A DNA stretch of 44,262 bases from Clostridia bacterium (lineage in GTDB: Bacteria; Bacillota; Clostridia; Oscillospirales; Acutalibacteraceae). The stretch's first letter is position 1. Every line of letters starts with the position of its first letter. The stretch covers positions 1 to 44,262 of the forward strand of contig JAFVIF010000028.1 in NCBI GenBank assembly GCA_017474125.1, in the 5' to 3' direction. The notes beneath the pieces are model-generated. The model had not been told where the DNA came from. It made no database searches and was given only the letters and a program-made list of their open reading frames with translations. Positions 4,412 through 18,154 of the stretch are shown piece by piece. The position numbers were made by a program, and so were the translations under genes.

Positions 4412-5158
4412 ATGGAAGACGTACGTTATTTGCCAATTACTAAGTTACAAATAGAAAAAGTAAGCTTTGTAAGCGTAACAAGGAATGGAAACTACATTTT
4501 TGATGTGAAAAAAGGAAAAGAGTTTTATTCCCTTGTTTACATAGAATCAGGAGCAAGCGAGTATAACTTTTCGGGCGGATTTGGAAGATTTACCTTAAAT
4601 AAGGGGGAATTGTTTTTTGCACCGAAAAATATTCCATATAAAGCAACCTATTTAAAGGATAACACCCGTATTAAAATGATTTGCTTTGACGCGCCCAAAG
4701 AAAATCTTTTTAATAACCGGCCCTTTATAAGTAAATCGGTAGAAATAGCAAGAGAGTTTTCGGAAATAAACCGAGAACGAATGCAGGATTATCTGTATTT
4801 GTGCTCGGCTATTTACAGGCTTTTATATATTCTTTCATATAATGAAGTGACTACTCCAAAGCGTTTTAAAAAGATACTTCCCGCCATAAAGGAAATAGAA
4901 GCAAATTATTTTGAAAACTATCCCGTTTCTCATTACGCTAAAATTGCCGATATGTGCGAATCCAATTTCCGCCGTCTTTTTAAGGAATATACCGGAAAGG
5001 GCGTAATAGAATACCGAAACGAAATTCGTATTCGTGAGGTGAATAAAATGCTTATAAGCGGTGAATATAACGTAAACGAAGCGGCTTTTGCCGCAGGCTT
5101 TAACAATATGTCATTCTTTTATGAGGTGTACAGAAAATATGAACAAGGCAAAAAGTAA
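4412..5158 (+). CDS. AraC-family transcriptional regulator
   Basis: A 248-residue protein. Residues 1-95 form a cupin-like ligand domain (segment GRFTLNKGELFFAPKNIPY) and roughly residues 150-245 form the double helix-turn-helix: HYAKIADMCESNFRRLFKEY, then a second motif with NEAAFAAGFNNMSFFYEVY. The ATG at 4412 was chosen over the in-frame TTG at 4397 because GAGGGGG (4399-4405) sits at proper distance before it. It is transcribed away from the DUF4838/secreted-protein operon and probably activates it in response to a sugar. A 17-bp-stem terminator follows. Confidence 0.9.
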   Translation: MEDVRYLPITKLQIEKVSFVSVTRNGNYIFDVKKGKEFYSLVYIESGASEYNFSGGFGRFTLNKGELFFAPKNIPYKATYLKDNTRIKMICFDAPKENLFNNRPFISKSVEIAREFSEINRERMQDYLYLCSAIYRLLYILSYNEVTTPKRFKKILPAIKEIEANYFENYPVSHYAKIADMCESNFRRLFKEYTGKGVIEYRNEIRIREVNKMLISGEYNVNEAAFAAGFNNMSFFYEVYRKYEQGKK

Positions 5159-5200
5159 TATGCCTTAAAATCGGTTAATAATGATTATTATTGGTCATAA

Positions 5201-5253
5201 AAAACACGGAGCTTATAAACTTCCTTATGAGAAGTCTATAAGCTCCGTGTTTT
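5201..5253. terminator. Bidirectional intrinsic terminator
   Basis: A perfect 17-bp stem (5201-5217 with 5237-5253) has an A-run on the left and a T-run on the right. It lies between the convergent AraC gene (+) and kinase gene (-) and can stop both. Confidence 0.85.
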
Positions 5254-5254
5254 T

Positions 5255-5974
5255 TTATAATGCTTTTGCAAGTCTTTCTGCTGTTTGATACCGTTCGTCG
5301 GGGTTAATGCTTGTACTTTTACGAACTATTCTGCCTGCTTTTCCTTTTGCAATTAATTCGCTCGGATGCTTACCTGTCAGCATTACGTTGAGCATTACTC
5401 CAAGGGCGTAAATATCGGTTCTCGCATCACTTCGTGAAATGCCTAATTGCTCGGGAGAGGCATAGCCTACCGTTCCCATAACGACGGTATCCCGCTTGGC
5501 CTTCGACATTTTATTTGAAGCGTTAAAATCAATAAGTACAACCCGTCCGTTTTTGCTTATCATTACGTTTTCGGGCTTTATATCTCGGTGAGTTATGCCC
5601 AAATTATGAATAATGGTAAGGGCGGAGCATACCGACTTTATTATTTTTCGAGCACCCATATAGCGGTATTTTCCTGTTTCCATAATCTGCGCTACGGTTA
5701 TGCCGTCAATGTATTCCTCCAGTACTATTTGACCGTCGGAAAGGGTAACGGTATCATAAATAATGGGAAGATTTTCATTTTTAATCTTATAAAGCTCATC
5801 GTAGGCAGGAACGGGTACAGAAAAGCTTCGTAAAACTAAATCCGTGTTTTTTTGACGGTTTCTGATTCGTATTACCTTGCATCCGTTTTTTTCGCTTAAA
5901 ACAGAAACGATAAGGTAGTGCTCTAAAAGCCTTTTAATGTATTCTTCTCTTGTCATATAACTTAGCCGTTCCAT
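5255..5974 (-). CDS. Ser/Thr protein kinase, kinase domain only, atypical motifs
   Basis: A 239-residue Hanks-type kinase with no transmembrane or PASTA part. The catalytic loop HRDIKPENVM (from residue 129), TVGYASPEQL and RTDIYALGVMLNVMLTG are clear. Three canonical elements differ: there is no GxGxxG loop (SEKNG stands there), the ATP-anchoring Lys position reads LVLR (Arg 49), and the metal motif is DFN (149-151), not DFG. The catalytic Asp, Asn and metal Asp remain, so it may be active with altered nucleotide binding. The ATG at 5974 overlaps the upstream gene; an in-frame ATG at 5956 lies 5 bp after that gene's stop, and neither has a strong ribosome site, which suggests translational coupling. 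It is the last gene of an operon with a zinc-ribbon LRR membrane protein and an HTH protein. Confidence 0.85.
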   Translation of the reverse strand: MERLSYMTREEYIKRLLEHYLIVSVLSEKNGCKVIRIRNRQKNTDLVLRSFSVPVPAYDELYKIKNENLPIIYDTVTLSDGQIVLEEYIDGITVAQIMETGKYRYMGARKIIKSVCSALTIIHNLGITHRDIKPENVMISKNGRVVLIDFNASNKMSKAKRDTVVMGTVGYASPEQLGISRSDARTDIYALGVMLNVMLTGKHPSELIAKGKAGRIVRKSTSINPDERYQTAERLAKAL

Positions 5975-6963
5975 TCTTCATAAGCTGCACCGTTGTAATC
6001 TGCTAAATATTTCCATTTGGTGAAGTTTCGGTTATGACAGGTGGCGGAGCAGTGTATGGTCAGTGTTCCCGTTCGCCTTGAAAGAGGAGCGAAGGGGGCA
6101 TCACCTATATAAAGCGCTTCGCCTTTTATGTATATATCGGTCAGATTGTTACAATAGAAAAAGCCGTAGGACCAAATGGTTTTTATGCTTGCAGGGATAA
6201 TTACTGTTTTTACGGTGTCTTTAATATTGCTTGCGCCGAAAGCGTTTTCCATAATGGCAATGACAGGTTTTCCGTCAATGACGGAGGGTATATTATACAC
6301 CCCGTTTGAAGATGGTGAGGTAACCTTGGTAATAACTATGGCATTTTCGGGTATGGCGGCGTAGGAGTTATAGTCGTCTCCCGCTTTTGCCGCACGGTAC
6401 GTATAACCTGAAGATACCGTTGGCGGGACTTGAGAGGAGGAATCAGAGGAGGTGTCGGAGGGTAAATTAGAAGAAGAGGAATTATCGTCCTTATCGTTTG
6501 AGGAGCTATTGTCGGACGAGTAGGGATTTGATGGTGAAACAACGCTGCTGCCCGAATTGCTTTCTCCCGAACTATTGTCTGACGAATTTTTGTCTGCAGG
6601 CTTGTGGGAATTATCGGCACTGCTGTACGAGTTACCTCCTTGAGAACTGTTTGCAGGAGCAGAGGGGGTTGAATTTAAACCGTTACCGCTTTGCTCCGAT
6701 GATGAAGCATCATCGACAAGGGGGGAGCTTAACGGTTGGGAGGAGGATTGAGAGGAGTTGCCGTTTTGAGTGTTTTTGAGTGCAAAAAAACATATCGTTA
6801 TAATAACGATTATTAAAAAGACCGCAATTAAAATTAGCGGCCATTTTTTATCGCTGTTTATATCGGATTTAATTTCCTTTTTATTTTCAAGTGAAGTCAT
6901 ACAGTAAAGGCAAAAACGGGCATTGTCTTCAATTTCTGCCTTGCAAAAGGGACATTTTTTCAC
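5962..6963 (-). CDS. Zinc-ribbon, single-pass membrane protein with BspA-like LRR ectodomain
   Basis: A 333-residue protein with four visible parts. There is an N-terminal zinc ribbon (Cys 4, 7, 18, 21). A transmembrane helix spans about residues 41-62. A long Ser/Asn/Asp-rich linker runs from about 66 to 185. The C-terminal part resembles LRR_5/BspA repeats (VITKVTSPSSNGVYNIPSVI, then NAFGASNIKDTVKTVIIPAS). The zinc ribbon would be cytoplasmic and the repeats outside. It sits between the HTH gene (4 bp gap) and the kinase gene (overlap). A sensor feeding a cytoplasmic kinase is an attractive inference from context only. Confidence 0.8.
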   Translation of the reverse strand: MKKCPFCKAEIEDNARFCLYCMTSLENKKEIKSDINSDKKWPLILIAVFLIIVIITICFFALKNTQNGNSSQSSSQPLSSPLVDDASSSEQSGNGLNSTPSAPANSSQGGNSYSSADNSHKPADKNSSDNSSGESNSGSSVVSPSNPYSSDNSSSNDKDDNSSSSNLPSDTSSDSSSQVPPTVSSGYTYRAAKAGDDYNSYAAIPENAIVITKVTSPSSNGVYNIPSVIDGKPVIAIMENAFGASNIKDTVKTVIIPASIKTIWSYGFFYCNNLTDIYIKGEALYIGDAPFAPLSRRTGTLTIHCSATCHNRNFTKWKYLADYNGAAYEEWNG

Positions 6964-6967
6964 AATA

Positions 6968-7405
6968 TCACCCCAAGGTTTCTAAGCCGTATTCAAAAAG
7001 TAAGCCGTTAATTTCAATAACGGATAATTTTTTACAAATGCCGTAAAGAATAATGCAGTCAAAGGGAAGCTTTACGTAAAGGGGGGAATAGCCTGCACAT
7101 TTAAGGAGGCGTTGTGTTTCGTCGATGCTTAATCCCATACCTATAATAAGACACAGCAGTTTTTTTCGTTCGGGAATGCGAAGCCCTGAGAAAATTTGGT
7201 AGCCGTAAACCTCTGACATTTCGGAATTTTTGATTATTTCGGCCTTGGTAAGTCCTTTTTCCATAGCAAAATTATTCAGCATTTGTGAAAGCGTTTCCGA
7301 GGCTATATATTCCTTGTTATCGCTGTAAAAGGTTTTGAAATCTGAGCAAAGCTTTAGCTCTTCTACAATTTTTGCCGTATCCTTATTCAAGTCACTCATC
7401 CTCAT
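6968..7405 (-). CDS. XRE-like HTH protein heading the kinase operon
   Basis: A 145-residue soluble protein. The core LTKAEIIKNSEMSEVYGYQI followed by FSGLRIPERKKLLCLIIGMG reads as an XRE-type helix-turn-helix, and SIDETQRLLKCAGYSPLY continues the helical bundle. Either the ATG at 7405 or the one at 7399 may be the start; neither has a Shine-Dalgarno site, and the predicted transcription start is only about 10-16 nt upstream. It is the first gene of the operon with the zinc-ribbon LRR protein and the kinase. It may bind DNA or act as the kinase's target; this is inference. Confidence 0.7.
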   Translation of the reverse strand: MRMSDLNKDTAKIVEELKLCSDFKTFYSDNKEYIASETLSQMLNNFAMEKGLTKAEIIKNSEMSEVYGYQIFSGLRIPERKKLLCLIIGMGLSIDETQRLLKCAGYSPLYVKLPFDCIILYGICKKLSVIEINGLLFEYGLETLG

Positions 7406-7421
7406 TAAAAAACTTTAAATA

Positions 7422-7466
7422 ATTGTATCATATGTAAGAAATTTTTTCAACTATGCTGTCAGCATA
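7422..7466 (-). promoter_or_regulatory. Promoter of the HTH/LRR/kinase operon with an adjacent 15-bp palindrome
   Basis: On the minus strand TTGAAA (7445-7450) and TACAAT (7422-7427) are 17 bp apart. Just upstream of the -35 box is TATGCTGTCAGCATA (7452-7466), a perfect inverted repeat with 7-bp arms around one base. It is a likely operator. The predicted RNA start near 7415 leaves almost no leader. Confidence 0.65.
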
Positions 7467-7517
7467 AGACTTTTGAAAATTTTTTGCATATAATACATAA
7501 TCGGATGAGGGGCGAAA

Positions 7518-7775
7518 TTACAACTCAGCATCCTCCGCTGACAGCAATTCGGAAATGGGGACTTCCAAAGCCTTTGAAAAAATCACTAAATCAATGTCGG
7601 TTACAAACCTCTCACCGTTTTCAACGCGACGTATGAAGTAGTGGTCCACATCAAAGCCAAGCAATTGCATTTTTGCTGCAAGCTTTCGTTGTGATAGTTT
7701 TTTTGATTTCCTTATTGAAGCAATTTTCTTTCCGCAAAGATTATTCGTGCCGTCGGCGGCCTTAATTTTAAACAT
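7518..7775 (-). CDS. Small XRE-family repressor-like protein
   Basis: An 85-residue helix-turn-helix protein. KIASIRKSKKLSQRKLAAKM is a typical XRE first half, and FIRRVENGERFVTDIDLVIF includes the recognition helix and next turn. The ATG at 7775 has GAGGG upstream. It is divergent from the SPFH operon, and 13-bp inverted repeats lie in the shared intergenic region, so it probably represses the SPFH operon, itself, or both. Confidence 0.85.
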   Translation of the reverse strand: MFKIKAADGTNNLCGKKIASIRKSKKLSQRKLAAKMQLLGFDVDHYFIRRVENGERFVTDIDLVIFSKALEVPISELLSAEDAEL

Positions 7776-7789
7776 TTAATCCCTCATTT

Positions 7790-7864
7790 TTTGTTGAATA
7801 CTATTTACTTTTTAATAATTTTATGATAAAATATTTCCAAAAGTGGTGAACAGTATTCAACAAA
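7790..7864. promoter_or_regulatory. Inverted 13-bp operator pair around the SPFH-operon promoter
   Basis: TTTGTTGAATACT (7790-7802) and its exact reverse complement AGTATTCAACAAA (7852-7864) are separated by 49 bp. Between them lies a plus-strand promoter: TTTACT (7804-7809), 17 bp, TAAAAT (7827-7832). One arm abuts the -35 box and the other lies about +13 to +25 from the predicted start, a layout expected for repression. The left arm also lies in the leader of the divergent XRE gene. Confidence 0.7.
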
Positions 7865-7898
7865 GTGGAGGGAATTATTTTTTTGTGGGAGGTTTTTT

Positions 7899-9071
7899 AT
7901 GGCAGGAATGGTACAAATTATAAAGTATGAAGGTGACAACAGCACCTTTGTATGGAAACATCCTTGTGAGGATTTTAATACCACAACCCAGTTGATTGTT
8001 CATGAAAGTCAAGAAGCGGTATTTTTTTTAAATGGCCAAGCACTTGATTTGTTCGGTTCGGGCAGGCATACTCTTGAAACACAAAACATTCCATTATTGC
8101 GCAAGCTGGTCAATATCCCTACAGGCGGAGAAACGCCTTTTCATTGTGAGGTTTATTTTATCAATAAAACCGAGCAAATGGCTATTAAGTGGGGTACCGA
8201 TTCAAGAGTTCAGTATGTTGAGCCTACCTATAAATTTCCTTTATCCATAGGCGCTTCAGGTGAAATGGCGCTTAGCGTTGAGGATTCGCGCAAATTACTT
8301 ATTAAGCTTGTGGGTACTGAGCGTACGCTTGACAGGAGCAGTCTTACTTCGTTTTTCCGCGGCTTATTAATGACAAGAATTAAAACCTACATAGCTCAGG
8401 AAATTAAAGCACGTTCAATTAATATTTTTGAAATTGATGAAAGGCTGGAGGATTTTTCCGACGGCATTCTTTTGCGCTTGCTTGACGACTTTAAGGAGTA
8501 CGGCGTTACTCTAAACAAATTTTTTGTTACAAACGTCGTAAAGCCTGACGGGGATAGACAATACGAAAAGTTTAAAGAATTGCATTTCCGTCAGTATGCT
8601 GATGTAGCTGAAGCAAAGTTAAAGCAACAAACCGAGGTTATTTTTGCTCAAACCGAAGCGGAGAAAACAGTTATAGAATCTCAGGCCTTAGCGCAGAAGC
8701 GGGCTACCGAAGGCTATACCTATCAGCAGGAGAGAGGCTTTGACGTAGCAGAGCAAGCGGCACAAAACGAAGGTGTTGGAGAATTCACTAATATGGGAAT
8801 AGGGCTTGGCGTTATGTCCGGAGTCGGCGGAATGGTAGGCGGTATGGTAGGCGGAGCAGTTAATAATGCTTTTGCAGGTGTTGCCAATGGCCCGCAAAAT
8901 GCCCAAAATGCCTTCTGCGATAATTGCGGTGCAAAATTAACGCCCGGTGCCGCTTTCTGTGATGAATGCGGAACACCACAGTCATCACAGGATATTTGTA
9001 GCAACTGTGGATTTAAGTTTATTAAACCCGGCAAATTCTGCCCTAAGTGCGGAAGTAAAAGGGAGGGTTGA
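7899..9071 (+). CDS. SPFH-domain protein with two C-terminal zinc ribbons (YdjI-like)
   Basis: A 390-residue protein. Residues 1-220 match the SPFH/YdjI ('virion core') type; MAGMVQIIKYEGDNSTFVWK is a characteristic opening. A charged coiled-coil-like stretch (about 225-290), a Gly/Met-rich segment (VGGMVGGMVGGAV) and two zinc ribbons follow (Cys 340/343/354/357 and 367/370/381/384). The ATG has a GGGAGG site. In Bacillus subtilis the related YdjI works with YdjG, YdjH and a PspA protein at the membrane. Here no PspA is present, but the operon encodes three membrane proteins. A role in membrane organisation or stress is inferred from this parallel. Confidence 0.85.
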   Translation: MAGMVQIIKYEGDNSTFVWKHPCEDFNTTTQLIVHESQEAVFFLNGQALDLFGSGRHTLETQNIPLLRKLVNIPTGGETPFHCEVYFINKTEQMAIKWGTDSRVQYVEPTYKFPLSIGASGEMALSVEDSRKLLIKLVGTERTLDRSSLTSFFRGLLMTRIKTYIAQEIKARSINIFEIDERLEDFSDGILLRLLDDFKEYGVTLNKFFVTNVVKPDGDRQYEKFKELHFRQYADVAEAKLKQQTEVIFAQTEAEKTVIESQALAQKRATEGYTYQQERGFDVAEQAAQNEGVGEFTNMGIGLGVMSGVGGMVGGMVGGAVNNAFAGVANGPQNAQNAFCDNCGAKLTPGAAFCDECGTPQSSQDICSNCGFKFIKPGKFCPKCGSKREG

Positions 9072-9074
9072 TAA

Positions 9075-9743
9075 ATGAAGAAAAATAGTGTAATGGCTTA
9101 TGCAGTATTAGCAATATCTTTTGCTCTTTTTAATGTAATTGCTTTTGTAGCACCTACTGCAAAAACGACAACCTTTTGGATTGCGTACGCCTTTAGCGTT
9201 GTAGCTTTTATATTGCAGATATTTATTTGGAATTATGCTTTTAAAGGAGCAAAAACGCTTAAAAGTAAATTCCTCGGAATTTCTCTTATTGCTGTCAGCT
9301 CTATTTACTTCTCGATTCAAATTGCTGTTTTTGTAATCTTTATGGTTTTCCCGACAATAGCAAGTTGGATTGCCGTAATAGTGTGTTCGCTGATTCTTGG
9401 CATTTCTTTGATTTGTCTAATCGGAACTGAGGTGGCCAGAGAAGAAATTGCTCATGTTGAATCTAAAGTAGAAAAGAAAGTCTTTTATATTAAATCGCTT
9501 CAAGTGGATGCTGAAATGTTGGCAAATACAGAAGCCGATCCCGATGTGAAGGCGGCTCTAACAAAACTGGTTGAAGCAATTCGTTTTAGTGATCCAATGA
9601 GCAACCAAGCTCTTGCAGATCTTGAAAAGGAAATTTCAAATAAGTTTGCTGAACTCAAGGTTGCGGAAAATAAAGCGGAAATTATTAAAGTTCTTGATTC
9701 GCTTATTGTTGAGCGTAATAAAAAAGCAAAATTATTAAAGTAA
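9075..9743 (+). CDS. Four-helix membrane protein with cytoplasmic helical tail, unknown function
   Basis: A 222-residue protein. Four hydrophobic segments occupy about residues 7-26, 33-54, 66-90 and 94-116. A charged, helical tail of about 100 residues follows (VEKKVFYIKSLQVDAEMLAN and onward), probably cytoplasmic. I do not recognise the family. The ATG is 3 bp after the SPFH stop, with GGAGGG inside the end of that gene, so the two are translationally coupled. The tail could be the contact to the SPFH protein; this is untested inference. Confidence 0.8.
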   Translation: MKKNSVMAYAVLAISFALFNVIAFVAPTAKTTTFWIAYAFSVVAFILQIFIWNYAFKGAKTLKSKFLGISLIAVSSIYFSIQIAVFVIFMVFPTIASWIAVIVCSLILGISLICLIGTEVAREEIAHVESKVEKKVFYIKSLQVDAEMLANTEADPDVKAALTKLVEAIRFSDPMSNQALADLEKEISNKFAELKVAENKAEIIKVLDSLIVERNKKAKLLK

Positions 9744-9758
9744 GAGGGGTTAAATACT

Positions 9759-11285
9759 ATGAATTTTGATGCGGTTTATACTGTAAAAAAGGAATTTGGT
9801 AAAGAAGAATTTTTAAGAGAGCTTATTATTGAACTTGGATTAAACACAGGTACTCCCGTTGACGTCGTTGATGCTGAGTTTAAAGATGTAAAAGAATCGG
9901 TGAAAGAGGTTATTGTTTGTACGGCTAATGTAGAAGGAACCTGCCGAGCCTCCGTTGGTTACGACCGTCAAGAGCCTTATACCGACTATGAAACCTATAG
10001 AGAAAAAGTTGGTGACAGCTATGTAACCCGTCAACGCGCGGTTACAAAATATAGAACTGTTACAGATTGGCAACCGTATACTGCTCCCTATTCGGGCAAG
10101 GCTACCTGCGCCGCTTATAATTCGGAAGAATATGATGATACCGGAATTGTAGAGGCCATTAAAACGGCTAATAAGGAAAGTATAGTTGAAAAGGGTGAGG
10201 CTGAGGTTGATTCAATAGGCTTGAGTAATGCGATTGCCGCCTGTAAAGCTAACGTCGAAAGCAGTGCCTTAAGGCTTCCGGGAGATCGCCAAAGAGATAC
10301 AGTCTATAGCTCCGAAGCGGAAATTCAGTTGTTGTCCTGCTATAAGCTGCCCTGTTACGAGGTTGTTTATACCTATAAGGGTGAGGAGTATTACGCCTTC
10401 AGTTTCGCTTGCGGAGATATTAATATTTATAGCGAAACTCCCGATAATGACATAGATATAACGTCTGTTGTTAAAGAAAAAACAGAAGGCTTAGAAAAGA
10501 CCAAAAAGCGTTCGTGGATGCTTTTCACCATTTCTATGATTGCTGCTACAATTTTGTGCCTTTCATTTGATTTTCCTTGGCTTTTCCCAATCCCTATTAT
10601 TTTATTGCTAAAGGCTAAAAAAGATAGCGACAGGTATAGCAAGGAATACAGCGAATACTCCGATAGTTTATCGAAAAATATTGCTGAGTCTAAGGTTTCG
10701 GCAATAAAAGCGGCTCTTGAAAAGCACGGCTTCGAGCCATTAAGCAAGAATTACAGTAACTCCTTGGAGGGTAGCTCCGTACCGGGCGCAAAGGAACTGC
10801 CTTCAATAAAAGGACGAGTGGTATTGTCTTGGGTTTTGGTTATAATTCTTACTTTAATATGTATTTTTAAAATAAATTTGATTCGTATTGCAGGCGTGCA
10901 TTCTCCCACTGCGGTTAATATTGACGTAATTGAAAAGCGTGTAGAATATAACCCTGACGTAAGTCCTTATGTTAACGGCTGTTATTACGTTCATTTCGAT
11001 TACGAAATAACTGCTAAAAGGATTGGAGTTGATTATATAGAGCTTAAGATAAACGTGAGTGATAAAAAGGGTGATGAGCTCGGATACATAACCTCGTCCT
11101 TTACAGACGTTAATCTGGACAAAGGCGATAAAAAAACAGTTACCGCTACTCTTGAAGAAAATCAGCCCGAAAATAATGAGTTTTTTACCGAGCTTTACAA
11201 TGCCGATTTTTCCGATTTGAAGTTTGACTGCGATATTCAAACTATTAAATTCAGTAACGGAGAATATTATTACAATCAGGATTAG
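9759..11285 (+). CDS. Membrane protein of the SPFH operon with C-terminal ectodomain, unknown function
   Basis: A 508-residue protein. The first 250 residues look soluble and unfamiliar, with a Tyr/Thr-rich stretch around 70-110. Hydrophobic helices lie near 252-270, 272-286 and 353-371, with a charged linker between 287 and 350. Residues 380-508 look like a beta-rich domain outside the membrane. That domain resembles the C-terminal domain of the next gene: both contain EYN near the start, a mid-domain D-x(2)-G, and an ending with EL-x-N, DL and I-x-F-x(2)-G. The ATG at 9759 has AGAGGGG upstream. No catalytic motif is visible. Confidence 0.8.
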   Translation: MNFDAVYTVKKEFGKEEFLRELIIELGLNTGTPVDVVDAEFKDVKESVKEVIVCTANVEGTCRASVGYDRQEPYTDYETYREKVGDSYVTRQRAVTKYRTVTDWQPYTAPYSGKATCAAYNSEEYDDTGIVEAIKTANKESIVEKGEAEVDSIGLSNAIAACKANVESSALRLPGDRQRDTVYSSEAEIQLLSCYKLPCYEVVYTYKGEEYYAFSFACGDINIYSETPDNDIDITSVVKEKTEGLEKTKKRSWMLFTISMIAATILCLSFDFPWLFPIPIILLLKAKKDSDRYSKEYSEYSDSLSKNIAESKVSAIKAALEKHGFEPLSKNYSNSLEGSSVPGAKELPSIKGRVVLSWVLVIILTLICIFKINLIRIAGVHSPTAVNIDVIEKRVEYNPDVSPYVNGCYYVHFDYEITAKRIGVDYIELKINVSDKKGDELGYITSSFTDVNLDKGDKKTVTATLEENQPENNEFFTELYNADFSDLKFDCDIQTIKFSNGEYYYNQD

Positions 11286-11324
11286 GAAAATTAAAGGCAA
11301 TGTGCCGCAGAAGGTAGATACATT

Positions 11325-12665
11325 ATGGTAATAAAATGCAAGTTGTGCGGTGGTAATTTAAATTTTGAAGGCGAGCTGGTTTCGGCAAAGTGCGATTCTT
11401 GCGGCATTGGTCAATTTATTTTTGATTATCTTGATAAAGAATCGGAAGATTACGACGAGCAGGCTGAAAGAATAAAGGTTGAAAAGGAAAATTTTGAAAA
11501 GTCATATTTAAGTTTTGCCGACGATATTTTAAACGCTGATAGTTACTGCCTTAAAGCGCATGATTTTAAAAAGGCTATTGATTTTTTTGAAAAATGCGGA
11601 GATTACAAAGAGGCTCCGCAATTATTAAAGCTTGCAAAAAAATATTTTATAGGAAAGGTTGCTTGTTTTGAGGATTGCCTTTTGGCTATTAAATATATTG
11701 ATGAAGCAGAAGACGTATCAAACGAAGAAAAGCAACAGAGCCAAAAAGAAGTGTCCGATTTGGCCGTATCCTTTAAGGTCATAGAGCTTGATGAAAAAGG
11801 CTTTTTGGCGATTTTGCCTACCAACCCTACGGCTGAAAACGTTTTTTTGGTAATGGAAAAAATCAAAAGCGCTAAAAACAAGGATATAAAGCTGTTGAGC
11901 GATTTTGAAAAAAATATTGTTTTTATAGCTTATGATAATGCAGCCCAATATATTGAAAAAAATACTGCTTCGGCGGTAAAAGAATGCGCCGATATTGCTT
12001 TAATTAACGACATTGGCGAAATGATACCCGTTATAAGGACTGCACTTGACGGTGTACAGCTTAGCGGTATAGAAGAAATTATTAATAACAGGCTTAACGA
12101 GCTTGCCGAGCAAAGCCGTGCCGAGGAGCAACGGAGGCTTGATGAGGAAAAACGGCATAAAAAGGAAAAAAAGTCGGAACGAATTCGTGTTATTGCCGTT
12201 ATCCTGAGCATCATTCTTTTAATTGCCTGCTTTATTGGCTACAGGGAAATGGGTTACTCGGCAAATAATTTAAGGGTTGAGGTTACACAAAAAACCAATC
12301 TTGAATACAACGAAAATTTGGCTGACGGATACGTAGGCGCAGGATATTTTTATTTGTTCAACCTTGAGCTTACCAATAAAAGCAATAACGCTATTGAGCT
12401 TGTTTGCGGACAACTTGAAATATTGAACAGTGATGGAGCAACGCTTTCCTCTTCTTACGTAGAGATGTACTGCAACCTTGACGGTAAAGCTTCCGAAACT
12501 CATAACCTTAGGCTAAACGTAAGCAAAGGACAATCCGCCCGTGAATTGTGGAATTCAGAGTTAAAGGATTTAACCATAAAATTCAAAATTAAAGCAATTC
12601 ACTTTAAAGACGGAACAAATAAGAGTTATCCAAATGCCAAAAACAAAATAATATATAAGCATTAA
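11325..12665 (+). CDS. Zinc-ribbon, helical-repeat, single-pass membrane protein with ectodomain
   Basis: A 446-residue protein. It has an N-terminal zinc ribbon (Cys 5, 8, 23, 26). A helical, TPR-like region follows (HDFKKAIDFFEKCGDYKEAP, residues 79-98). A basic charged helix runs about 262-286. A transmembrane segment spans about 287-305, and a C-terminal domain covers 312-446. The zinc ribbon end should be cytoplasmic and the last 135 residues external. The C-terminal domain resembles that of the preceding gene, so the two may have arisen by duplication and may pair. The arrangement recalls B. subtilis YdjG (zinc ribbon plus membrane helix in the ydjFGHI operon), but homology cannot be settled by eye. 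Confidence 0.8.
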   Translation: MVIKCKLCGGNLNFEGELVSAKCDSCGIGQFIFDYLDKESEDYDEQAERIKVEKENFEKSYLSFADDILNADSYCLKAHDFKKAIDFFEKCGDYKEAPQLLKLAKKYFIGKVACFEDCLLAIKYIDEAEDVSNEEKQQSQKEVSDLAVSFKVIELDEKGFLAILPTNPTAENVFLVMEKIKSAKNKDIKLLSDFEKNIVFIAYDNAAQYIEKNTASAVKECADIALINDIGEMIPVIRTALDGVQLSGIEEIINNRLNELAEQSRAEEQRRLDEEKRHKKEKKSERIRVIAVILSIILLIACFIGYREMGYSANNLRVEVTQKTNLEYNENLADGYVGAGYFYLFNLELTNKSNNAIELVCGQLEILNSDGATLSSSYVEMYCNLDGKASETHNLRLNVSKGQSARELWNSELKDLTIKFKIKAIHFKDGTNKSYPNAKNKIIYKH

Positions 12666-12716
12666 TGCTTTAAATAAAACAAGAAGACAAAAATTGAATT
12701 AAAAGGAGATAAAAAA

Positions 12717-13136
12717 ATGGGATTTTTTGATAAAGTAAAAGCGGCTATAAACCGTATTAAAGAAGACAATAAATATATGGCAAGAACTACTGCTCGTATT
12801 AACAGCGGCAATTTGTACGGTTGGGTAAACTTCAAAACCGGCAAAATGGATCCTAACGACGATTTCAGAGCAGGCAGCTACGTTAACGTAGAAAACGGAA
12901 AGGGTATTATTTATAACACCGGTGACGAAGATTATAACTTCGAACCCGGCGATATCGTTTCCTTTAAGCACATTGGTGACGGTCATCCGCTTAACGGCGG
13001 CAATGACAGGGCTACCGGTCAAAGAATTTCTCTTCCCACTTGGAGATTTGCAGCAGAATTTAAAGACGGTAAAAAGACTAATATGGACATCAACATCAAG
13101 AAGCTTGATGCTTTCAAGTCTATTTTCCAGCTTTAA
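12717..13136 (+). CDS. Small soluble protein ending the SPFH operon, unknown
   Basis: A 139-residue protein with a strong ribosome site (AAAAGGAGAT) before the ATG at 12717. It starts with an amphipathic helix, MGFFDKVKAAINRIKEDN, of the kind PspA uses to touch membranes. The rest is a polar, Gly/Asp-rich domain with no Cys and no membrane segment (segments NFEPGDIVSFKHIGDG, LPTWRFAAEF). I do not recognise the family. It follows the zinc-ribbon gene by 51 bp and precedes a terminator, so it is probably the last gene of the operon. Confidence 0.75.
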   Translation: MGFFDKVKAAINRIKEDNKYMARTTARINSGNLYGWVNFKTGKMDPNDDFRAGSYVNVENGKGIIYNTGDEDYNFEPGDIVSFKHIGDGHPLNGGNDRATGQRISLPTWRFAAEFKDGKKTNMDINIKKLDAFKSIFQL

Positions 13137-13197
13137 TAAGCAAAGCTTAAATATTATTTATGTTCTTCTTGTTTTTAGTATAATAGGCAAAAACAAA

Positions 13198-13236
13198 TGC
13201 ACCTCACGGGTCAAACCGTTAAGAGGTGCATTTTTT
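13198..13236. terminator. Bidirectional terminator between SPFH operon and nagA
   Basis: TGCACCTC (13198-13205) pairs with GAGGTGCA (13223-13230), and an inner ACGG/CCGT pair extends the hairpin. T-runs on the right and an A-rich left flank allow use from both strands. Confidence 0.75.
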
Positions 13237-13246
13237 AGTGTTAATT

Positions 13247-18042: not shown

Positions 18043-18083
18043 TGTTTTCTCCTTAAACTCAAAATTATAATGACTATGTTGAT

Positions 18084-18154
18084 GTCGAAACATGGCAAAG
18101 CCTTATTTCGACTGCGAATTCTTTGAATTCGCAAACAATTACCAAGGGTAATTG
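18084..18154. repeat. Three consecutive inverted repeats (structured intergenic element)
   Basis: Three perfect hairpins lie almost end to end. GTCGAAA/TTTCGAC (18084-18112) contains an inner GGC-AAA-GCC. TGCGAATTC-TTT-GAATTCGCA spans 18113-18133. CAATTACC-AAG-GGTAATTG spans 18136-18154. They fill most of the 122-bp gap between rluA-like and CPBP genes. No T-run follows, so the cluster is not an ordinary terminator. It could be a structured leader, a processing site or a small mobile repeat. Confidence 0.7.

Follow-up and report, generated by a model that had tools for sequence, protein, structure and literature searches.

This work concerns a 44,262-nucleotide contig from a Clostridia bacterium (GenBank assembly GCA_017474125.1, contig JAFVIF010000028.1), referred to here at its full length as the window, in which a gene for an XRE-type regulator faces a five-gene operon headed by a gene for an SPFH protein (positions 7518 to 13136). 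With moderate confidence, we read this operon as belonging to a probably mobile membrane system of modular build that tethers swappable zinc-ribbon sensors or effectors, most likely for biological conflict, with anti-phage immunity as the leading candidate role. SPFH proteins form oligomeric, membrane-associated assemblies. The modular architecture of the cassette, which consists of SPFH, the protein encoded next to it (g222), and a slot for exchangeable zinc-ribbon proteins (the cargo), is well supported. The genes of the window copy and its control region are as follows (TM, transmembrane).

7518-7775, minus strand: XRE-type regulator (HTH_3, E 8.4e-6), divergent from the SPFH gene
7790-7864, no strand: candidate operator, a 13-bp perfect inverted repeat around a promoter-like TTTACT-17-TAAAAT (repeat search)
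7899-9071, plus strand: SPFH protein, 390 amino acids (Band_7_1 PF13421, E 2.7e-36; DZR, E 5.1e-9), conserved platform core
9075-9743, plus strand: g222, 222 amino acids, multi-TM, with a C-terminal soluble tail holding a near-invariant SDPxS; proposed SPFH anchor
9759-11285, plus strand: g508, 508 amino acids, cargo-slot protein with a TM segment (hhalign, hydropathy)
11325-12665, plus strand: g446, 446 amino acids, consisting of a zinc ribbon, a charged region, a TM segment (287-305), and a C-terminal domain (hhalign, hydropathy)
12717-13136, plus strand: g139, 139 amino acids, small, last gene of the operon, without relatives in the 80 loci surveyed below

A conserved SPFH-g222 core and an exchanged zinc-ribbon slot

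A scan of GTDB contigs gave 423 relatives of the window SPFH, and the analysis was carried out on the best 80, mostly from records titled as Clostridia or as families thereof (individual loci are designated by L numbers). SPFH and g222 form the conserved core of these loci. Simple open reading frame (ORF) picking lost the SPFH ORF in 3 of the 80, which left 77 for counting adjacency; in 72 of these, g222 was among the next three ORFs past SPFH, most commonly after a gap of 3 bp, and tblastn detected g222 in 74 of the 80. The reverse search, using a g222 profile, was positive in 32 of 391 genomes of the class, including the window's own. Besides the window, this profile pointed to 35 places, 29 of which were fetched; SPFH was present in the stretch in 27 of the 29 and directly adjacent in 26. 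Conservation falls off along the cassette: across 60 loci, the median pairwise identity is 70% for SPFH and 37% both for g222 and for the 60 N-terminal cargo residues, and it drops to 20% in the cargo remainder.

The position after g222 is a zinc-ribbon slot whose cargo is exchanged. Where the slot is filled, an N-terminal CxxC pair was found in 61 of 66 loci, compared to 31 of 691 other ORFs. For a locus to count, one ORF of 150 or more amino acids starting within 900 bp had to have the motif, while the background was counted per ORF, and this difference in counting somewhat flatters the contrast. Four of the five exceptions have a zinc-ribbon-TIR gene elsewhere, either one place further on (L042) or upstream of SPFH (L060, L064, and L074); the remaining one, L009, terminates with a g508 relative. 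Among 117 pairs of loci with SPFH proteins at least 80% identical, the median cargo identity was 72% over the first 60 residues and 31% beyond. The pair L003 and L008 illustrates the pattern: identity is 95% for SPFH, 86% for g222, 72% for the zinc ribbon, and 4% for the rest of the cargo, for which blastp gave no match between the two at E 1. Likewise, the window SPFH is 88% identical to that of L003, but the L003 cargo differs.

For the domain content of the slot and the genes that follow it, 93 slot-region proteins were scanned (set A2: 92 of 127 ORFs plus g446, with later or doubtful ORFs left out by hand). TIR_2 was found in 9 of these, DUF6273 in 6, the CFI-box C-terminal domain in 18, and the HEPN domain pEK499_p136 in 2, along with single cases of SduA_C, Peptidase_C14, RNase_T, LRR_5, DUF6591, and DUF5050. 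TIR_2 also occurred in 3 of 64 proteins upstream of SPFH (set A3: 63 of 99 upstream ORFs plus XRE, with mostly short ORFs left out by hand). TIR domain and zinc ribbon are parts of a single polypeptide, and 9 of 10 proteins with the TIR motif have a predicted TM segment C-terminal to it. Other effector-type genes include a Shedu-type SduA gene after the cargo in L016 (PADLOC, E 5.1e-91), a caspase in L072, a HEPN protein in L003, a RES protein in L005, and, in L025, a SIR2_2 protein with ThsA-type matches accompanied by an AbiH that falls below the Pfam cutoff. An RNase_T-BRCT protein is encoded immediately past SPFH-g222 at L060:5721-7427 and L084:2268-3698. A 548-amino-acid gene in L155 had appeared AbiH-like by eye; it gave no Pfam match and was not counted.

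DUF6273 is found C-terminally in several zinc-ribbon-TIR cargoes, and in L096 and L097 the same module, with a weak TPR, is fused to g222. Its occurrences at the C termini of cargoes or fusions include L042:8897-11422, L156:11145-13610, and L097:1483-3132. According to a study on Faecalibacterium prophages (PMC11792537), DUF6273 carries the variable regions of diversity-generating retroelement (DGR) target proteins.

These results bear on an earlier note on this DNA. The note had proposed to check whether the five genes plus XRE co-occur; one conserved unit of the six is rejected here, as g508, g446, and g139 are not conserved with SPFH-g222 and only the latter two genes recur among the 80 relatives. 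The note had named scattering of the genes in related genomes as evidence that would count against it; this was seen for g508, g446, and g139, which are swapped, and not for SPFH and g222. The membrane platform that it proposed, directed perhaps against envelope damage, peptides, or phage, is retained, with its likeliest role shifted from envelope repair toward biological conflict because immune-type effectors occur in the swapped slot and next genes of relatives.

Patchy distribution and a site lacking the block

The distribution of the cassette is patchy. The g222 family was present in 1 of 3 genomes of the window's genus and in none of the 8 other genomes of the same taxonomic family that the class-wide search listed. 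The cassette also occurs on two IMG/VR contigs, one of which carries both HEPN and zinc-ribbon-TIR genes, and on a plasmid of Butyrivibrio fibrisolvens D1, pNP21; of the 8 plasmid records that matched at all, it was alone in matching closely. On pNP21, g222 appears as two ORFs of 109 and 145 amino acids (L157:7883-8649), flanked by the SPFH and zinc-ribbon cargo genes. In the stretch 4935-7546 of a Bacteroides finegoldii plasmid record (L158), a distant SPFH (35%) precedes a 251-amino-acid protein and a zinc-ribbon protein, beside yidD; this arrangement is a possible Bacteroidota counterpart.

Recombinase genes neighbor a minority of the loci. Phage_integrase was found in 15 of the 64 scanned upstream proteins. 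Integrases lie on the same strand as SPFH and 109 to 392 bp upstream in 15 of 74 loci, and resolvases are found in 3 of 74; one recombinase family always takes a same-strand position 290 to 392 bp upstream (12 of 12 cases). In some of the loci L012, L013, L023, and L036, genes of ~380 amino acids belonging to clusters 15 and 16 precede the recombinase, upstream of SPFH.

In the window, the operon and XRE belong to a larger block that also includes a neighboring operon on the opposite strand:

5159-13246, no strand: whole block, missing from the matching AraC-nagA junction of the same-genus genome G596 (genome comparison, gene names by eye)
5255-5974, minus strand: Ser/Thr protein kinase, 239 amino acids, without a TM segment (Pkinase, E 2.4e-30)
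5962-6963, minus strand: znLRR, with an N-terminal zinc-ribbon motif, a TM segment (43-61), a long linker, and a C-terminal BspA-like leucine-rich repeat (LRR) region; the zinc ribbon and the LRR are both below the Pfam cutoff
6968-7405, minus strand: hth145, 145 amino acids, of a family that typically adjoins kinases; belongs to a neighboring module outside the core (family search)

In G596, the flanking AraC-like and nagA-like genes are 35 bp apart, compared to 8.1 kb in the window (the names AraC, nagA, rplJ, rplL, pduL, and hemN were assigned by eye). Insertion of the block in the window lineage is the simpler reading, with deletion in G596 as the alternative. In genome G595, the nagA side is present and no match to the AraC side was found. 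The block ends share a 9-bp direct repeat (5146 and 13185), which was considered as an insertion scar and rejected as too short, and GC content is uninformative (38.9% in the block; 39.7% and 43.3% in the flanks). Elsewhere in the window, a 35- to 40-bp sequence at 18061-18100 recurs at 96 to 100% identity on nine other contigs of the same genome and on two contigs of G596.

The window copy, its control region, and the adjacent kinase module

All six ORFs of the XRE gene and the facing operon described in the earlier note were recovered at the coordinates given, with an SPFH protein bearing a double zinc ribbon behind Band_7_1 and an XRE protein assigned to HTH_3, both as the note had described them. 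The genes from SPFH to g139 are separated by 3, 15, 39, and 51 bp. In the SPFH protein, CxxC motifs start at residues 340, 354, 367, and 381, and hydropathy gave no TM segment. The note's "four-helix protein" is g222; the window protein has three strong TM segments, while hydropathy averaged over 57 aligned g222 sequences (set A1: 56 proteins of 215 to 240 amino acids plus the window's) shows an additional broad hydrophobic stretch from residue ~67 and fits four. Of the two proteins to which the note had ascribed external domains, g446 has the N-terminal zinc ribbon (CxxC at 5 and 23), the single TM segment, and ~140 residues beyond it, and g508, which lacks a zinc ribbon, shows a hydrophobic region at ~254-283 and a TM segment at 354-372. 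The TM-then-C-terminal-domain layout of the two is as described, and the C-terminal parts would lie outside the cell. The amphipathic helix said to open g139 is an unremarkable feature, since its moment of 0.38 was reached by 18% of 5000 residue shuffles. Neither the kinase/zinc-ribbon/hth145 operon nor the 13-bp inverted repeat had appeared in the note.

As the note had also held, four of the families could not be named: g222, g508, g446, and g139 gave nothing above the curated cutoffs of Pfam or NCBIfam, and none of the four was matched convincingly by PADLOC or PHROGs. In searches of PADLOC and PHROGs at E 0.01, g508, g446, and g139 had no match. At E 1, SPFH, g222, g446, and g139 had none in PADLOC-DB 2.0.0, where the sole match of g508 was PDC-M02B (E 0.063), XRE matched generic control-protein and helix-turn-helix (HTH) models, and the neighboring kinase matched many kinase models.

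Sequence and profile comparisons connect two of the window's own slot proteins to the cargoes of relatives. The N terminus of g446 aligned with those of the zinc-ribbon-TIR cargoes (hhalign probability 96.5%, E 7.8e-10), and both its zinc ribbon and its C-terminal part matched the slot protein L036_11 (E 2.5e-8). A two-sequence profile of the g508 and g446 C termini also matched the C terminus of L036_11 (E 3.9e-9), and the C-terminal domain of g508 is weakly like that of g446 (57% probability, from single sequences). Residues 57-109 of g508 resemble the slot proteins of L012, L013, and L073, which form one cargo cluster (hhalign 89.8%), and the only near copy of g508 is in L009, partial owing to a contig end, with 66% identity over 196 aligned residues. 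No relative of g139 was found among the 80 loci; a proposed likeness to the small slot protein L021_8 was not supported (hhalign, 10 residues, 1.8% probability).

The control region is the 123-bp gap between XRE and SPFH. Within it, TTGTTGAATACT occurs twice in inverted orientation and without mismatch, at 7791-7802 (plus) and 7852-7863 (minus), with no further exact copy in the window; both copies belong to the 13-bp perfect inverted repeat. This repeat brackets the promoter-like site at 7804-7832, which has a TG ahead of the second hexamer, although promoter-like sites are common by chance (28 found versus 22.6 expected in the scanned region). An inverted repeat of at least 12 bp arose in 73 of 20,000 dinucleotide shuffles of the gap. 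On this sequence evidence, XRE probably represses the operon at the 13-bp inverted repeat. A divergent HTH gene lies 58 to 191 bp upstream of SPFH in 14 of the 74 relatives with enough upstream sequence, and these genes belong to four sequence clusters; relatives of the window XRE occupy this position in L010, L021, and L044 (E 2.7e-13 to 8.1e-12). The gaps of these three loci have a repeat in common that is unlike the window's, and the candidate operator is therefore not conserved.

The kinase/zinc-ribbon/hth145 operon occupies 5255-7405, on the strand opposite the SPFH operon. It was considered as part of the core and rejected. The hth145 family was found in 128 of 391 genomes of the class, and 24 of 29 fetched loci had a kinase hit, mostly without SPFH; kinase-hth145 is thus a separate, common module. 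It stands beside SPFH in the window, L009, L062, and genome G193 (L171), where hth145, SPFH, two proteins with N-terminal CxxC, and g222 are on one strand and the kinase is divergent. Relatives of znLRR are present in L009 and L062. G596, negative in the g222 search, has its own copy of the module ~6 kb from the AraC-nagA junction, by rplJ/rplL-like genes (L169:3179-5411). The C-terminal region (457-566) of the L060 RNase_T-BRCT protein is hth145-like (E 1.6e-6). At L172:4393-5238, a zinc-ribbon motif is fused to a kinase (281 amino acids) adjoining hth145, a fusion which suggests that the zinc ribbon of znLRR and the kinase may act together. A functional tie of the kinase module to the SPFH cassette in a subset of loci is plausible.

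Proposed mechanism, known systems, and rival explanations

By analogy with known systems, g222 would anchor the SPFH oligomer to the inner face of the membrane, as YdjG and YdjH do for YdjI, and the product of the third, exchangeable gene would be cargo that docks by means of an N-terminal zinc ribbon. A subset of the cargoes, including nearly all those of the TIR cluster, are predicted to span the membrane, with an effector in the cytosol and a C-terminal domain probably outside. The trigger for cargo release or activation may be an altered membrane or cell surface, for example through a phage, a rival's element, or a surface ligand. The window copy has g508 and g446 in this slot, two TM proteins with C-terminal domains, plus g139. 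We regard biological conflict as the most likely function because TIR, Shedu, caspase, HEPN, SIR2-like, RES, and exonuclease domains occur in relatives.

Several observations weigh against this reading. No effector domain was recognized in g508, g446, or g139 by Pfam, NCBIfam, PADLOC, or PHROGs, which leaves a sensor or holder with an unrecognized output, or a partner of the adjacent kinase, as what the window copy may be. In relatives, the Shedu, caspase, HEPN, RES, and SIR2 domains are separate genes past the slot rather than fusions; the non-TIR effectors amount to one or two cases each in 93 hand-chosen proteins, or were hand-picked (L025), and neighbors inside mobile islands can be coincidental. 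In the commonest cargo cluster (cluster 2), only 10 of 60 proteins have a predicted TM segment and 50 have none, so that the idea of a membrane receptor suits a part of the family only. The slot-motif survey found 8 of the 80 loci without g222 and 6 without a usable next ORF. With respect to mobility, no recombinase of the counted kinds lies within 450 bp in 56 of 74 loci, and window-like SPFH was found in 1 of 72,556 plasmid records, with a single distant match in phage records. Finally, the proposed repression by XRE draws on one inverted repeat at one locus, and L010, L021, and L044 have a different one.

The closest published system, PspA-YdjGHI of Bacillus subtilis, underlies the foremost rival explanation, namely, that the operon encodes an envelope-stress platform: a PspA-less ydjGHI relative sensing and buffering membrane damage, with the slot diversity reflecting envelope ligands and the effector-like neighbors being passengers of an island. 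The SPFH family itself, a C-terminal zinc finger, and the lack of a TM segment are common to YdjI and the window SPFH, and in both cases membrane partners are encoded alongside. When either ydjG or ydjH was deleted, YdjI was no longer recruited to the membrane (Scholz et al. 2021, PMC8581546). YdjG has two zinc ribbons, an NTF2-like domain, and a TM segment, and YdjH has a TPM domain (Ravi et al. 2024, PMC11237479); g446 likewise combines an N-terminal zinc ribbon with a TM segment, but it has one zinc-ribbon motif, one TM segment, and a C-terminal domain without a Pfam name. The lack of a recognized effector in the window copy is also in keeping with this alternative. On the other hand, PspA (PF04012) had no match in the window's own genome, which is 86% complete, while 9 of 14 control genomes were positive; the earlier note's description of a YdjI-like SPFH with membrane partners and without PspA thus holds. 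Pfam gave no TPM match at E 1 in g222, g508, or g446, so that g222, by Pfam, shows no sign of the domain described for YdjH. As both PspA and a TPM protein were looked for and not found, we do not file the cassette as a member of pspA-ydjGHI. Further, PspA-YdjGHI has a sigma-W promoter, whereas the cassette has XRE or recombinase neighbors, a hypervariable third slot, and, in some relatives, effectors. Cargo exchange, patchiness, and recombinase neighbors would be unusual for a housekeeping stress response, and TIR belongs to the cargo polypeptide itself. Taken together, we consider the envelope-stress explanation unlikely.

The nearest functional precedent for tethered cargo is found in B. 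subtilis, where the CBASS cyclase is covalently conjugated by Cap2 to chromosomal PspA and, as the authors propose, released upon infection (PMC11153139); an immune enzyme is thereby kept at a membrane complex until infection. The same study detected YdjI in a band from the membrane fraction of its preparation (PMC11153139). CBASS differs in that its four-gene defense operon, as described there, has no SPFH gene. Modular conflict systems (Kaur et al. 2020 eLife, PMC7159879) likewise consist of a conserved core and variable effector-like parts, with zinc ribbons and TM parts in some, as here; their cores, however, are NTPases, and SPFH/band-7 is confined to the reference list of that paper. The general features of such systems, a conserved core, exchanged cargo, and a patchy distribution, are all found for the cassette; an effector in the window copy is not. 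Domains of the kinds known from Thoeris (TIR/SIR2), Shedu, and AbiH are found as cargo or next gene in relatives, and PADLOC found none of them in the window copy. Although SPFH/zinc-ribbon platforms and core-plus-variable-effector systems are both known, their combination was not found, nor was any description of the SPFH-g222-zinc-ribbon cassette, in the open PMC papers, which were covered in part.

It is quite improbable, in our estimate, that the cassette serves contact or surface recognition. On this view, it would sense the niche or distinguish self from non-self instead of defending against phage: external domains of TM cargoes would bind host glycans or ligands on neighboring cells, with the platform or the kinase relaying the signal. 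Such a role would suit the zinc-ribbon-TIR cargoes in which a TM segment is followed by DUF6273 (e.g., L042), given the DGR-target variable regions noted above, as well as znLRR, whose TM segment precedes the LRR-like part. It is at odds with the cluster-2 cargoes lacking a predicted TM segment, which include the LRR cargo of L021, and with the recurrence of intracellular immune effectors in the slot and next genes. Least probable is a module for maintenance of a mobile element or superinfection exclusion, benefiting the element over the host cell: an integrase or resolvase lies just upstream in 18 of 74 loci, the divergent HTH gene in 14 of 74, and the cassette is found on one plasmid and two viral contigs, but most loci lack nearby recombinases and Pfam found none among the block's nine genes. 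This last rival overlaps with the conflict reading, since element-borne defense often does both.

Extending the conflict reading, we tentatively propose, at less than moderate confidence, that Clostridia and some other bacteria possess a mobile immune SPFH platform with a dedicated membrane anchor and interchangeable zinc-ribbon sensors and effectors. One class would comprise TM cargo with a cytosolic TIR and an external ligand-binding domain, a layout analogue of surface-sensing TIR receptors; in the window, two sensors with C-terminal domains would have taken the place of the effector and may pass a signal to the adjacent kinase. SPFH proteins, of the stomatin/flotillin type, occur widely, and their uses in bacteria are largely open. 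If the proposed system is real, it would give an SPFH scaffold a concrete job, that of retaining immune enzymes or sensors at the membrane pending a trigger, and its zinc ribbon would serve as a tag for genome searches after further unnamed effectors.

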